Source: Chlorobium sp. (GTDB lineage: Bacteria > Bacteroidota > Chlorobiia > Chlorobiales > Chlorobiaceae). Taken from it: a stretch of 64,000 nt of DNA. The stretch covers positions 682,001 through 746,000 of the forward strand of contig SZXW01000010.1 of NCBI GenBank assembly GCA_005862285.1. The letters are read 5' to 3'. Each line of letters starts with the position of its first letter. The first letter of the stretch is position 1. The translations under genes and the position numbers were made by a program. Below the pieces are notes generated by a model, which saw only the letters and a program-made list of their open reading frames with translations, ran no database searches and was not told where the DNA came from. This document shows, piece by piece, positions 24,124 to 28,658 of the stretch.

Positions 24124-24142
24124 ATTGAGCGGTATTCTCAAT
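24124..24142. repeat. Operator-like dyad ATTGAG-N7-CTCAAT
   Basis: A perfect six-base inverted repeat lies just upstream of a TATAAT at 24155. A further AATTGAG half-site follows at 24165. It is consistent with a regulator-binding site for the divergent genes; no regulator is known. Confidence 0.35.
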
Positions 24143-24340
24143 CAAAAGAGTTGGTATAATAGGAAATTGAGATAGATTTATACAGAGATCGTACCTTTCA
24201 TATTTCATTCTTTAATACTCTTCCGTGAATTGTATTTCGGTCGAATTTTTCATGAACTGGTTATTCTTAGTGATTTTTTTTAGCTAAATGACGATCGGTA
24301 TGTCATATGATTTCAGGCATTTTTAGTGAAATTTCACACG

Positions 24341-24377
24341 TCCGGATTAAGCTTAGCTTAACCCTGGCAGATCCGGA
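24341..24377. repeat. Nested inverted repeats upstream of the RiPP maturase
   Basis: Outer arms TCCGGAT (24341-24347) and ATCCGGA (24371-24377) enclose inner arms TTAAGC/GCTTAA with a 3-base spacer. This could be an operator or leader structure about 70 bases ahead of the radical SAM gene. Confidence 0.35.
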
Positions 24378-24444
24378 TCGAACCTTAAAGCTACAGGATC
24401 AGTATCTCTCAGTGAGATGTGTCAATTCACTTAATAAATAGAGC

Positions 24445-25599
24445 ATGATATTTTCCCCTGATGAAGTAATCAATCATCGAAAACCTGTCACTGAAAATCC
24501 GGCAAGAAGATTGTGTACGCTTGTCGTAACTCATCAATGCAATCTTCAGTGTGTTTATTGTTATGAATCGTATAAATCATACAAGTCGATGCCTGTCGAT
24601 ATTGCTAAAGATATCATTACATCGGAATTTGATTTTGTAGCCAAATCCTCTCAATTCAAAGAAATATCCATAGATTTTATCGGGGGAGAACCTCTTCTGA
24701 AGTTCGATCTCATAAAGGAAATTGCCGAATGGATTTGGTCTGCACCACGCCCTGTACCGTACATATTGTTTTCCACTACAAACGGAACATTGCTCGATGG
24801 AGCAATGAAGGAATGGTTCCGCCACCATAAAAAGCGGTTTTACCTGAGTTTGAGTTTTGATGGCACATCTGAGATGCATCGAATCAATCGAGGGGAATGC
24901 CTTGATGACATTGATCTTGATTTTTTTTATGAAAATTGGCCTGATCAACCGCTTAAGATGACAATTTCTCCAGAAACTGTCGATTCTCTATGCCAGGGTA
25001 TAATTTTTCTGCAGGAAAAGGGATTCAGGGTAGGCGCAAGCCTGGGGTATGGAATGCCATGGAATGAAAAGTCTGTTGCGGAATATGGAAAACAGCTTCA
25101 GATCTTGGGTGAATATTATCTTGAACATAAAAACATTCAACCGGTTTCCTTACTCGATCTTCCTCTTCAGTATACATTGGAAAAACCTTCCCCTGCCCAG
25201 TCGAAATTCTGTGGCGCCGGTACACATATGGCCGCCTATGACGTAGATGGCACTGCTTATCCCTGCCATATGTTTACTCCTCTTGTGTTGAAATCCGACA
25301 AATCTGATATTCATGTATTGCAGTTTATCGAAAACGAACAATACAGCGATTTGCGATGCAGGGGATGTGTTCTGGAGAAGATCTGTCCAACCTGTTATGG
25401 TATGAATTATAAGCAGAGAGGAGACATAGCTCTCAGAGATGAAATGGTGTGCCGTCTTTTCAAGGAGCAGGTGCTTGCGAATTGCTGGTTCAAAACCCAA
25501 CTGTTAAAACGAAAAAAGATGAATGAGAATTTGTCAGTTGAAGACATCAGGTTGGCCAAATCTTGCTTATTTCTTTTAAAAGAATTTAATTTCCAGTAA
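24445..25599 (+). CDS. Radical SAM/SPASM peptide maturase, CXXX-repeat type
   Basis: The 384-residue enzyme has the radical SAM cluster motif CNLQCVYC (C32, C36, C39), the SAM-contact GGEP (80-83) and a C-terminal SPASM region with cysteines at 256, 274, 305, 308, 314, 317 and 336 (including CRGCVLEKICPTCYGMNY), enough for auxiliary Fe-S clusters. Enzymes of this kind form thioether or other carbon crosslinks on ribosomal peptides. A Cys-rich peptide with CXXX spacing begins 24 bases after its stop, so it is most likely a maturase of that target family. The exact chemistry cannot be read from sequence. Confidence 0.88.
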   Translation: MIFSPDEVINHRKPVTENPARRLCTLVVTHQCNLQCVYCYESYKSYKSMPVDIAKDIITSEFDFVAKSSQFKEISIDFIGGEPLLKFDLIKEIAEWIWSAPRPVPYILFSTTNGTLLDGAMKEWFRHHKKRFYLSLSFDGTSEMHRINRGECLDDIDLDFFYENWPDQPLKMTISPETVDSLCQGIIFLQEKGFRVGASLGYGMPWNEKSVAEYGKQLQILGEYYLEHKNIQPVSLLDLPLQYTLEKPSPAQSKFCGAGTHMAAYDVDGTAYPCHMFTPLVLKSDKSDIHVLQFIENEQYSDLRCRGCVLEKICPTCYGMNYKQRGDIALRDEMVCRLFKEQVLANCWFKTQLLKRKKMNENLSVEDIRLAKSCLFLLKEFNFQ

Positions 25600-25623
25600 A
25601 TGCAATCAAAAAGGAGGGTTTCT

Positions 25624-25830
25624 ATGACACATATTACATCCCTGGATATGGATTTTCTTCAGGAGGAAGTATCGGTATACGAGATGGTCAATGGTGATGT
25701 CTCTATGATTTGCGGGGACTATTTAGCAAAAAACAAAGAATGCTCGGATTGTTCCGGTACATGTGAAGGTACTGTATCGTGCATATGTGGGGGGAGTTGT
25801 TCCGGTACATGTCACGGTAGTACCAAATAA
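25624..25830 (+). CDS. Cysteine-rich RiPP precursor with CXXX repeats
   Basis: A 68-residue peptide. Residues 1-37 form an acidic leader (MTHITSLDMDFLQEE...), and the C-terminal core holds cysteines at 40, 43, 47, 53, 55, 59 and 63, with one more at 30. The core repeats CSGTC-x-G twice and reads as CXXX units (CSGT, CEGT, CGGS, CSGT, CHGS). AAGGAGGG nine bases ahead fixes ATG 25624 as the start. It directly follows the radical SAM maturase. The core is the presumed site of thioether or similar crosslinks; no leader-cleavage GG is obvious near the boundary. Confidence 0.85.
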   Translation: MTHITSLDMDFLQEEVSVYEMVNGDVSMICGDYLAKNKECSDCSGTCEGTVSCICGGSCSGTCHGSTK

Positions 25831-25919
25831 GTTTTCATGTTCAGCCTGCTACTGGCAGGGATGCCGAAAGATATCGTAATTCCCCCGGGACCCTTGACAA
25901 TAAGGCTTGCGACTTGCAA

Positions 25920-27767
25920 TTACCGTTCATAATGGCTTGATTGAAGATTGTACAGTTTTGCATAGTGTGAATCCTTTTGCATGAGTTCTTCATGTGATCC
26001 ACTTTCTATTATACTTCCGTTTTCGAGCACAAGAATCCGGTCAACCATTCTGATTGTGGAAAATCTGTGGCTTATTATGATTGCGGTTTGCCCTTTGGTA
26101 ATCCGAAGAAAGTGATCAAACAGATTATGTTCCGACTGAATGTCAAGTGAACTGGTTGGTTCATCCAAGATGATTAAGGGAGCTTCTTTCAGGAATGTGC
26201 GCGCGAGAGCAATTTTCTGCCATTGTCCTGTGCTTAATTCTGTTCCTTCTTCGAATAATCTTCCAAGTTGTGTTTCATAACCACGGGGAAGCTTTTCTGC
26301 AATTTTGTCTGCACCGGAAAATGAGGCTGCCTGCATGATACGTTTGTGTTCATGTTGTGATTCTATATCCCCGTAATGGATATTTTCACGCACAGTTGTC
26401 TGATAACGTGCATAGTTCTGCAGAAGAACGGCTAAATTGCGTCTCAAATCCGCTACGTTAAAATTCCTGATATTGATTCCATCGATAAGTATCGATCCTT
26501 CTGTTGGATCATAGAGCCGGCAAAGAAGTTTGACAATAGTGGTCTTTCCCGCACCGTTCTCACCTACAAGTGCAACATGTTCTCCCGGTTTGATGGTAAA
26601 AGAAACATTATCAATTGCGCATGTAGAGCTACCCGGATATCGGAAGGTTACCTGGTCGAAATTGATACCTTTGCTGATCTTTGCCGGAAAAGCATTTGAG
26701 GTTGATGGTTTGCCGATTTTTTGTTCAATTGCAAGAAATAATTCGTAGTCGGACAGAAAAAGGGAGTCTTCGTACAGTGATGCAAGTGAACCGAGGGCTT
26801 CTTTCAGAGCAGTTAATCCTCGCTGGAAAGCCTGAAAGCACATCACAAGAGAGCCGATTGTTACCAATCCAAGAAGAGTTTTGCGGATAATATATACCAG
26901 AACTATAAAAACTGCGGAAATCGAAGGAATCTGGGAAGCAAAATCTGTGCTGTGCTGTTTTATCAAAAGCTTCAGATTTTCTGAGCGAACTCTCTTTCGG
27001 TATTCGTCATAGAGTTTTTTAAAAAAAGAACCGATTTCCAGCAGACGAACTTCCATAGCATGTTCTTCTCCTGTAAGAATATAGCTGAGGTATGCAGCTT
27101 TTCGCTCAATTTGGGTCTGCTTATGCTTCTGTCTGTAAATTCTTTGAGAAAAAACAAGTTGAACCATAAATCCGGGAATCGCTGAAAATGCGAGTATAAA
27201 CGGTATAGTCCATTCAAATATCACGAGTAAACCGGACAAAGATATCAGGATGATCGAGTTCTGTAGAAAATTCATAAGGCTGTTAACAATATTTACCGGA
27301 CGATAGTGTGCTTCCCGCTGGGTCCTGTGAAGAAGATCGAAATAAGCGGGATTTTCGAAACATTCAAGGTCGACCAGGATTGATTTCGCGTGAATTGTTT
27401 CGGTTACCTTGTCGGTTACCAGCCTTGCCAGATGTCTGGTGACAATCAAACCAAGTGATTTTATCCCGGTTTCAAACAAAGACAGCAGGGCGATAATAAT
27501 TACCAGAAATACCGTGCTGTCAAGTAAAATTGAAGGATTGGAGGAACGTACACCGGTTGCAAGTCGATCAATGAGAACCTTTAAAAAAAAAATCAGAGCG
27601 AATGGCAACATACCTTGCAAAACAGTTACCACCAGAGATGCAGCCATCCATGTTCTACTGCATTGCCATACGAGTTGGACAGCATGCCTGATTCGAGTAA
27701 TTGAACGAATTATATTGACTGTTTTGTTCGCAATGGATTTAATTGACTGATAAAATTGGCTGTTCAT
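25920..27767 (-). CDS. ABC transporter, fused permease/ATPase (probable RiPP exporter)
   Basis: The 615-residue half-transporter has about six membrane helices in residues 35-330, then a nucleotide-binding domain with Walker A GENGAGKTT, signature LSTGQWQ (a variant of LSGGQ) and Walker B LIILDEPTSS. It lacks an N-terminal C39 peptidase domain, so leader removal would need another protease. It is convergent with the maturase-precursor pair with an 89-base gap, and is the obvious export candidate for the modified peptide, though this rests on position only. Confidence 0.88.
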   Translation of the reverse strand: MNSQFYQSIKSIANKTVNIIRSITRIRHAVQLVWQCSRTWMAASLVVTVLQGMLPFALIFFLKVLIDRLATGVRSSNPSILLDSTVFLVIIIALLSLFETGIKSLGLIVTRHLARLVTDKVTETIHAKSILVDLECFENPAYFDLLHRTQREAHYRPVNIVNSLMNFLQNSIILISLSGLLVIFEWTIPFILAFSAIPGFMVQLVFSQRIYRQKHKQTQIERKAAYLSYILTGEEHAMEVRLLEIGSFFKKLYDEYRKRVRSENLKLLIKQHSTDFASQIPSISAVFIVLVYIIRKTLLGLVTIGSLVMCFQAFQRGLTALKEALGSLASLYEDSLFLSDYELFLAIEQKIGKPSTSNAFPAKISKGINFDQVTFRYPGSSTCAIDNVSFTIKPGEHVALVGENGAGKTTIVKLLCRLYDPTEGSILIDGINIRNFNVADLRRNLAVLLQNYARYQTTVRENIHYGDIESQHEHKRIMQAASFSGADKIAEKLPRGYETQLGRLFEEGTELSTGQWQKIALARTFLKEAPLIILDEPTSSLDIQSEHNLFDHFLRITKGQTAIIISHRFSTIRMVDRILVLENGSIIESGSHEELMQKDSHYAKLYNLQSSHYER

Positions 27768-28076
27768 CGATAAAGTCGATTCATGCTGTTATGTTAAGAT
27801 TTAGTATGTAGTTACCGCGAGCTGATGGATGAATATAAAGCTGGTTTTTCATTGTCATGCTTTGTTTGTCATTCATTCAAACCCTTTTACCTGCAATAGA
27901 CTGATTGTCATGGTGATGCATGGATGGGATGTCAAAATGACTGTAACATAAGTACAAGTTTAGCACCTCTCTGCCAATCATTTATGCTTTACATGCTTAA
28001 AGATGCGTATTGAATAGAGTTTAGAGTTTGGGTTTCTGATATTTTCATTTTTTGTTCAGAGGCATTATGTTGAAGC
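27768..28076. other. Divergent intergenic region, no feature recognised
   Basis: 309 bases between the start of the ABC transporter and the start of the pentapeptide protein. It must hold both promoters; no clear -10/-35 or dyad was picked out. Confidence 0.5.
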
Positions 28077-28658
28077 ATGAAAAGAGAAGATACTGCACAT
28101 ACCGAAAATGAAAGTTTCGAGAAAGTAACATTCGGAAACGAAAACCCGTTACAGGGCGTTTACGAAGAGTGCCGGTTCATCAGGTGCCTGTTCAACGGCG
28201 CGGACCTTTCGGCTGTGATTTTCAGGAATTGTATTTTTGAAGGGTGTGACCTGAGCCTTGCCAAAGTCAGGGACACTTCATTCCAGGAGGTCCGCTTTTC
28301 TGATTGCAAGTTACTTGGCGTTCAGTTCTGTGAATGCAGGACATTCCTTCTTGAACTTGCATTTAAAGGCTGCATGCTGAAGCTCTCGATGTTCAACAGG
28401 CTCCATCTGAAAAATACGGTATTTGTCGAATGCGATCTGCAGGAAGCTGATTTCACCGAGACTGACCTGACCGGGGCGGTGTTCCGGAGGTGTGATCTTT
28501 CGCGAACGATTTTCGATCACACCAACCTTGAAAAAGCCGATTTCCGGTCTGCAACAAACTACTCCATCAACCCTGAAACCAACCGCCTGCGAAAGGCACG
28601 CTTTTCTTTGCCTGGAGTCGCCGGTCTGCTCGACCGTTACGGCATCGAGATAGAATAG
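28077..28658 (+). CDS. Pentapeptide repeat protein (McbG/Qnr-like)
   Basis: A 193-residue protein with repeated A(D/N)LxX pentapeptides (ADLSAVIFRNCIFEGCDLSLAKV..., DLTGAVFRRCDLSRTIF) that would form a right-handed quadrilateral beta-helix of about six coils. Cysteines recur at the repeat position, as in Qnr and McbG. Members of this group mimic DNA and protect gyrase from quinolones or from the peptide microcin B17. It is 309 bases from the RiPP transporter start, so a self-immunity role is conceivable but unproven; similar proteins also occur alone. Confidence 0.85.
   Translation: MKREDTAHTENESFEKVTFGNENPLQGVYEECRFIRCLFNGADLSAVIFRNCIFEGCDLSLAKVRDTSFQEVRFSDCKLLGVQFCECRTFLLELAFKGCMLKLSMFNRLHLKNTVFVECDLQEADFTETDLTGAVFRRCDLSRTIFDHTNLEKADFRSATNYSINPETNRLRKARFSLPGVAGLLDRYGIEIE

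Follow-up and report, generated by a model that had tools for sequence, protein, structure and literature searches.

A compact radical SAM/SPASM cassette from Chlorobium, probably encoding a cysteine-rich RiPP outside the CXXX-repeat and PapB families

The window, a 64,000-nucleotide stretch of a Chlorobium sp. contig, contains three neighbouring genes that, on comparative sequence evidence, are a real RiPP locus, encoding a radical SAM/SPASM maturase, a cysteine-rich precursor and an ABC exporter. We propose, with a probability of about 0.75, that they form a lineage-specific cassette, probably acquired horizontally, in which the precursor is made, linked through cysteine thioethers by a maturase lacking an RRE, and exported. 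The locus is a variant of the radical SAM/SPASM Cys-rich RiPPs that lies outside the CXXX and PapB families, and its clade is apparently unnamed and widespread. The maturase has the radical SAM triad together with SPASM auxiliary-cluster cysteines, and the adjacent conserved precursor gene encodes a leader and a Cys-rich core, as expected for this type of system.

Organization of the locus

The features of the cassette, in window coordinates, are as follows.

24445–25599, plus strand: RRE-less radical SAM/SPASM peptide maturase of 384 aa
25610–25618, plus strand: Shine-Dalgarno sequence of the precursor, AAAGGAGGG, read directly; the related locus L030 is arranged alike
25624–25740, plus strand: precursor leader, residues 1–39, carrying L12, Y19 and G24, from an alignment of 10 clade precursors
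25741–25830, plus strand: precursor core, residues 40–68 plus stop, CSDCSGTCEGTVSCICGGSCSGTCHGSTK, identical to the L030 core at 25 of 29 residues
25920–27767, minus strand: MsbA-like ABC exporter of 615 aa, lacking a C39 peptidase, with its closest Chlorobium relatives in radical SAM peptide cassettes
24142–28061, no strand: three-gene block missing in the near relative G362, which has 273 unrelated bp there instead

The preliminary description had called this a CXXX-repeat RiPP locus, in which a SPASM radical SAM enzyme precedes a 68-residue peptide with a strong ribosome-binding site and seven core cysteines in CXXX-like spacing, followed by a convergent ABC exporter without a peptidase domain. 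All of these architectural points were borne out by the open reading frames and the searches below. The reading as a SPASM radical SAM RiPP locus with a precursor also stood, whereas membership in the curated CXXX-target families did not. A 44-codon open frame at 24307–24441 ends just before the maturase, and its status as a gene is unsupported. The maturase frame itself has no clear ribosome-binding site of its own.

The precursor peptide and its conservation

Translation from ATG 25624 gives a precursor of 68 residues, MTHITSLDMDFLQEEVSVYEMVNGDVSMICGDYLAKNKECSDCSGTCEGTVSCICGGSCSGTCHGSTK. The open frame begins upstream, at 25600, but ATG 25624 is preferred as the start because AAAGGAGGG lies five bases upstream and the equivalent start in L030 stands behind AAGGAGGGAGT. 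The peptide has eight cysteines: an unconserved one in the leader, C30, and seven (40, 43, 47, 53, 55, 59 and 63) in the core. Five of these seven share one CXXX register (43, 47, [V51], 55, 59, 63), in which V51 breaks the run, so the label CXXX-like is fair. No Asp or Glu occurs four residues after any cysteine of the core (residues 40–68), which therefore contains no CX3D or CX3E motif. Between the precursor and the exporter no terminator was found beyond chance expectation.

The same gene pair is present in L030, a 5-kb contig from Kiritimatiellales, where the maturase is 61% identical to that of the window and is followed by a 70-residue peptide with the core CTDCYGTCKGTVSCICGGSCSGTCTGSTK. 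Among the 25 core residues identical between the two peptides, 15 are encoded by synonymously changed codons, and the differences over the whole core fall 3/2/16 by codon position. Preservation of the core despite synonymous changes, together with this codon-position pattern, points to purifying selection on the protein; by this sequence comparison the precursor is a conserved gene under selection at the protein level. In addition, a Cys-rich open frame preceded by a Shine-Dalgarno sequence, with at least 4 cysteines in its last 60 residues and within 700 bp, was found beside 38 of 65 related maturases (58%) and beside 13 of 137 control genes (9%), the controls being other genes of the same loci and the detector and thresholds being of our own setting (Fisher p = 3e-13). 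Stricter thresholds gave the same direction. Therefore, the pairing of precursor and maturase is not a chance arrangement, and related maturases beside Cys-rich peptides occur across many phyla. Relatives in viral contigs are distant ones only, with at most 33% identity. Across the 65 genomes of the genus, the pair was found in no other genome; G256 holds a related locus, which is also carried by the Chlorobiaceae record L033. In a search of the genus for extra precursor copies the G256 locus alone was convincing, and the other matches (E of at least 5e-4) were chance-like.

The gain/loss block and the exporter

Comparison with G362, a closely related Chlorobium, revealed flanks of 90–92% identity on both sides; in place of window positions 24142–28061 (about 3.9 kb), G362 has 273 bp of unrelated DNA. 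The block holds the maturase, the precursor and the exporter and nothing else. It has a GC content of 39–42% versus 46–47% in the immediate flanks, and no direct repeats over 8 bp were found at its ends. The cassette was probably gained horizontally, which is likelier than a loss in G362. The pentapeptide-repeat gene at 28077 was considered as an immunity gene and rejected, being present in 59 of the 65 genus genomes.

The exporter contains the Walker A motif GENGAGKT, an LSTGQ motif and the Walker B motif LIILDE, and no Peptidase_C39 match was found over its 615 residues. It is convergent to the precursor and not co-transcribed with it. Within the genus, its nearest homologues are a paralogue at 49% identity, encoded by the window's own genome, and proteins of 34–42% identity elsewhere. 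It might be argued that the RiPP system consists of the maturase and precursor only and that the exporter is an unrelated neighbour with another cargo, as it lies on the opposite strand, is absent beside the L030 pair (although that contig is just 5 kb long) and shares only 26–29% identity over partial length with the exporters of larger loci of the clade. We consider this unlikely, because the block gained or lost relative to G362 comprises all three genes and no others, and because the nearest genus homologues of the exporter, the 49% paralogue included, adjoin radical SAM/SPASM peptide enzymes in 7 of the 8 loci examined. The exporter is therefore counted in the system, to which these sequence comparisons suggest it probably belongs.

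The maturase and its likely chemistry

The maturase carries the radical SAM motif CX3CX2C (C32, C36 and C39) and seven SPASM cysteines (C256, C274, C305, C308, C314, C317 and C336). Across 38 relatives these cysteines are all invariant but C305 (at least 90% conserved). The best-scoring profiles are those of thioether or Cys-peptide maturases, namely PapB, CXXX, Nif11, SCIFF and CcpM. The top curated profile is that of PapB (NF047865) with 141.4 bits, below the cutoff of 340. Like the window pair, the PapB/PapA ranthipeptide system (freyrasin type) has an adjacent Cys-rich substrate, but membership was rejected on the score and on the lack of CX3D or CX3E in the window substrate. The CXXX-repeat system (TIGR04115/TIGR04114/TIGR04119) likewise has a SPASM radical SAM enzyme adjoining a peptide with CXXX-spaced cysteines. 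Unlike it, the window maturase stands apart in the tree and the block contains no TIGR04119 partner. Membership was rejected here as well, with 114.3 bits for the maturase against a curated cutoff of 350 (TIGR04115) and 11.8 for the precursor against 20 (TIGR04114). The L030 precursor scores 12.2 bits against the latter model.

An AlphaFold model of the maturase (pLDDT 90.6) has CteB as its closest solved fold (5WGG/5WHY), with a Z score of 30.2 to 5WGG over 318 residues at 25% identity. CteB carries an N-terminal leader-binding RRE. The match covers only residues 91–450 of CteB, and because it begins only at residue 91 we conclude that the window maturase is without an RRE. About 20 residues precede its radical SAM domain, and the pLDDT is under 50 for residues 1–16. 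The window system also differs from SCIFF in its precursor, which is not of that type, and in the score of the maturase with the SCIFF model TIGR03974 (89.9 bits, cutoff 425).

These comparisons make a thioether-crosslinked product plausible by analogy. Another modification, such as a C-C or C-O crosslink or an epimerisation, with the cysteines serving in metal binding or disulfides, is unlikely. SPASM and related enzymes of similar fold (SuiB, ChlB, TigE and EpeE) do other chemistry, and the core is without the motif used by PapB; against this, the best profiles are of the thioether or Cys-peptide kind, the nearest fold is CteB, and within the core the clade precursors conserve their cysteines better than any other residue. 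That the small frame is no RiPP precursor, and that the enzyme activates sulfatases or is another SPASM enzyme acting on some other protein, is very improbable: the structural matches include anSMEcpe (Z 23.6), but the maturase has only 40.5 bits with the anaerobic sulfatase maturase model TIGR03942 (cutoff 349.45), so that this identity, which the preliminary description had named as a possible refutation, was rejected, and in addition the peptide core is conserved at the protein level in L030 and Cys-rich peptides track related maturases.

Proposed mechanism

Based on the thioether reading, we propose the following pathway. The 68-residue precursor would be made from the conserved gene, and its leader would be recognised through a signature shared within the clade by the RRE-less SPASM maturase. 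As suggested by its cysteines and fold, the maturase would use SAM and two auxiliary Fe-S clusters for H-atom abstraction, after which core cysteine thiols would be joined to carbons of neighbouring residues in CXXX-like units, with a loss of 2 Da per link. PapB crosslinks Cys to Asp in CX3D motifs, also with –2 Da per link (PMC9413430, PMC10470005). Since the window core has no CX3D or CX3E, the acceptor must differ from that of PapB, whose reaction is not directly transferable; the acceptors would most likely be Ser, Gly or Thr between the cysteines. CteB and Tte1186 form thioethers to Thr (PMC10352776), a use that by analogy seems to fit the CSGT units better than PapB chemistry does. The cassette contains no leader peptidase gene, and the leader would be removed by a protease encoded outside it. 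The convergent ABC exporter would then secrete the peptide, as its kinship and the integrity of the cassette suggest. An antagonistic, signalling or metal-binding role of the secreted peptide is possible. The cassette offers a compact substrate-enzyme pair that is open to testing and belongs to none of the curated thioether families; it could reveal how an RRE-less SPASM maturase recognises its leader and which residues accept sulfur in a CXXX-like core without CX3D.

The clade and its ClpP-like neighbours

In a phylogeny of 81 maturases (midpoint root, some deep forks weak), the window and L030 enzymes are sisters with a support of 100/100. Their neighbours come from Sporomusa, Selenomonadaceae, Lentisphaerae, Bacteroidota and another Chlorobiaceae genome, and the TIGR04115-type enzymes of Anaerococcus (L017) and Chlorobium (G125, L024) form a distant separate pair. 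An alignment of 10 clade precursors revealed a common leader signature, L-x6-Y-[EST]-x3-G, in which G24 is invariant and L12 and Y19 are nearly so. The cores are Cys-rich, ranging from a few cysteines to long CXXX repeats, and the precursor of L042 exceeds the TIGR04114 cutoff (27.6 versus 20 bits).

A small ClpP-family protein (PF00574) is encoded near the maturase or the precursor in six loci, at the following positions.

L031: 7526–8113
L018: 11479–12009
L034: 7523–8026
L036: 9382–9909
L041: 5223–5747
L042: 7375–7932

By one sequence alignment with the ordinary ClpP encoded in the window's genome, and not by a structure, these proteins retain the Ser and His of the catalytic triad and have S, E or G in place of the Asp. 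A second radical SAM gene is present in L018, L036 and L041, and an ABC exporter in the same three loci and L034. The loci L031 (Sporomusa), L034, L036, L041 and L042, which come from Sporomusa, Selenomonadaceae and Bacteroidota, resemble the window in their RRE-less maturase, leader signature and Cys-rich core, but add the ClpP-like protein and in some cases the second radical SAM enzyme and another ABC exporter. The ClpP-like protein may be the leader peptidase of these RiPPs, and comparison across the clade brings such proteins forward as a possible leader-processing component. A review on the proteases that remove RiPP leaders (PMC10885120) and a full-text literature search yielded no mention of them. 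For the window, the idea of a dedicated ClpP-like partner was rejected, as none is encoded in the block and the one clear ClpP of the genome is ordinary, with the triad Asp present. The window cassette, which has no such gene, is the minimal form, and L030 has the bare pair on its short contig. We give even odds to a wider reading, that all these loci represent a widespread unnamed RiPP family spanning Chlorobiota, Kiritimatiellota, Lentisphaerota, Bacillota and Bacteroidota and defined by an RRE-less SPASM maturase, the L-x6-Y-[EST]-x3-G leader and a CXXX-type core, with the window cassette as its minimal version and a ClpP-like candidate peptidase in the larger loci.

Several other arrangements were observed among the relatives. 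The ABC gene upstream in Sporomusa was rejected as a RiPP exporter, being partnered with a DUF1854 gene, a pairing that we take to be the cyanophycin-associated arrangement. In two acidobacterial loci (L095 and L100), the Cys-rich precursors encoded immediately upstream of the maturases begin with a twin-arginine-like segment (DRRQFLR, then a hydrophobic stretch), a sequence feature that suggests the Tat route rather than an ABC exporter. Another precursor type, with the C-terminal sequence C-x-CGCSCAEP-x2-G-x-VT, adjoins related maturases in a Chlorobiaceae genome (L020: 5895–6224) and, upstream of the maturase, in a Roseiarcus MAG (L090). Upstream of the maturases in L093 and L094 are precursor-like proteins of 224 residues, far bigger than usual precursors, in which a long N-terminal region is combined with some 14 or more cysteines of the CxGGC type.

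RiPP systems in green sulfur bacteria

The preliminary description had regarded green sulfur bacteria as a group not known for RiPPs. This is contradicted by SynChlorMet, Nif11-type and TIGR04115/TIGR04119 systems in the group; the occurrence of RiPP-like systems in these bacteria is no novelty, and databases already contain examples. A survey of anaerobes from 2014 included one Chlorobi genome and detected no RiPP genes in it (PMC4289311). Our literature search on 'CXXX repeat', TIGR04114/TIGR04115 and SynChlorMet found no papers. The SynChlorMet models are named in part after Chlorobium, and the window's own genome has a SynChlorMet cassette with all three proteins above cutoff (ScmE 599 bits, ScmF 557.6, ScmC 212.8). 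This cassette (L203: 7229–14643; G000:C1 about 785–793 kb, outside the window) also includes the 49% paralogue of the window exporter, a signal-peptidase-like protein, and a candidate precursor of 93 residues that contains Cys and has no NCBIfam or Pfam match. SynChlorMet shares with the window cassette a related exporter and the logic of a radical SAM/SPASM peptide system, but its two unrelated radical SAM enzymes, ScmC and the signal-peptidase-like protein are all missing from the window block. On a plasmid of Prosthecochloris, a maturase and a precursor of the Nif11 type are annotated. The Chlorobium genome G125 has a genuine CXXX system (L024: 5507–10131), above cutoff for TIGR04115 (560.7 bits) and TIGR04119 (234.8 bits), and this locus also contains an ABC exporter, together with a candidate precursor whose C-terminal end is DCDGGCGGQCLSGCKDECITVSK.
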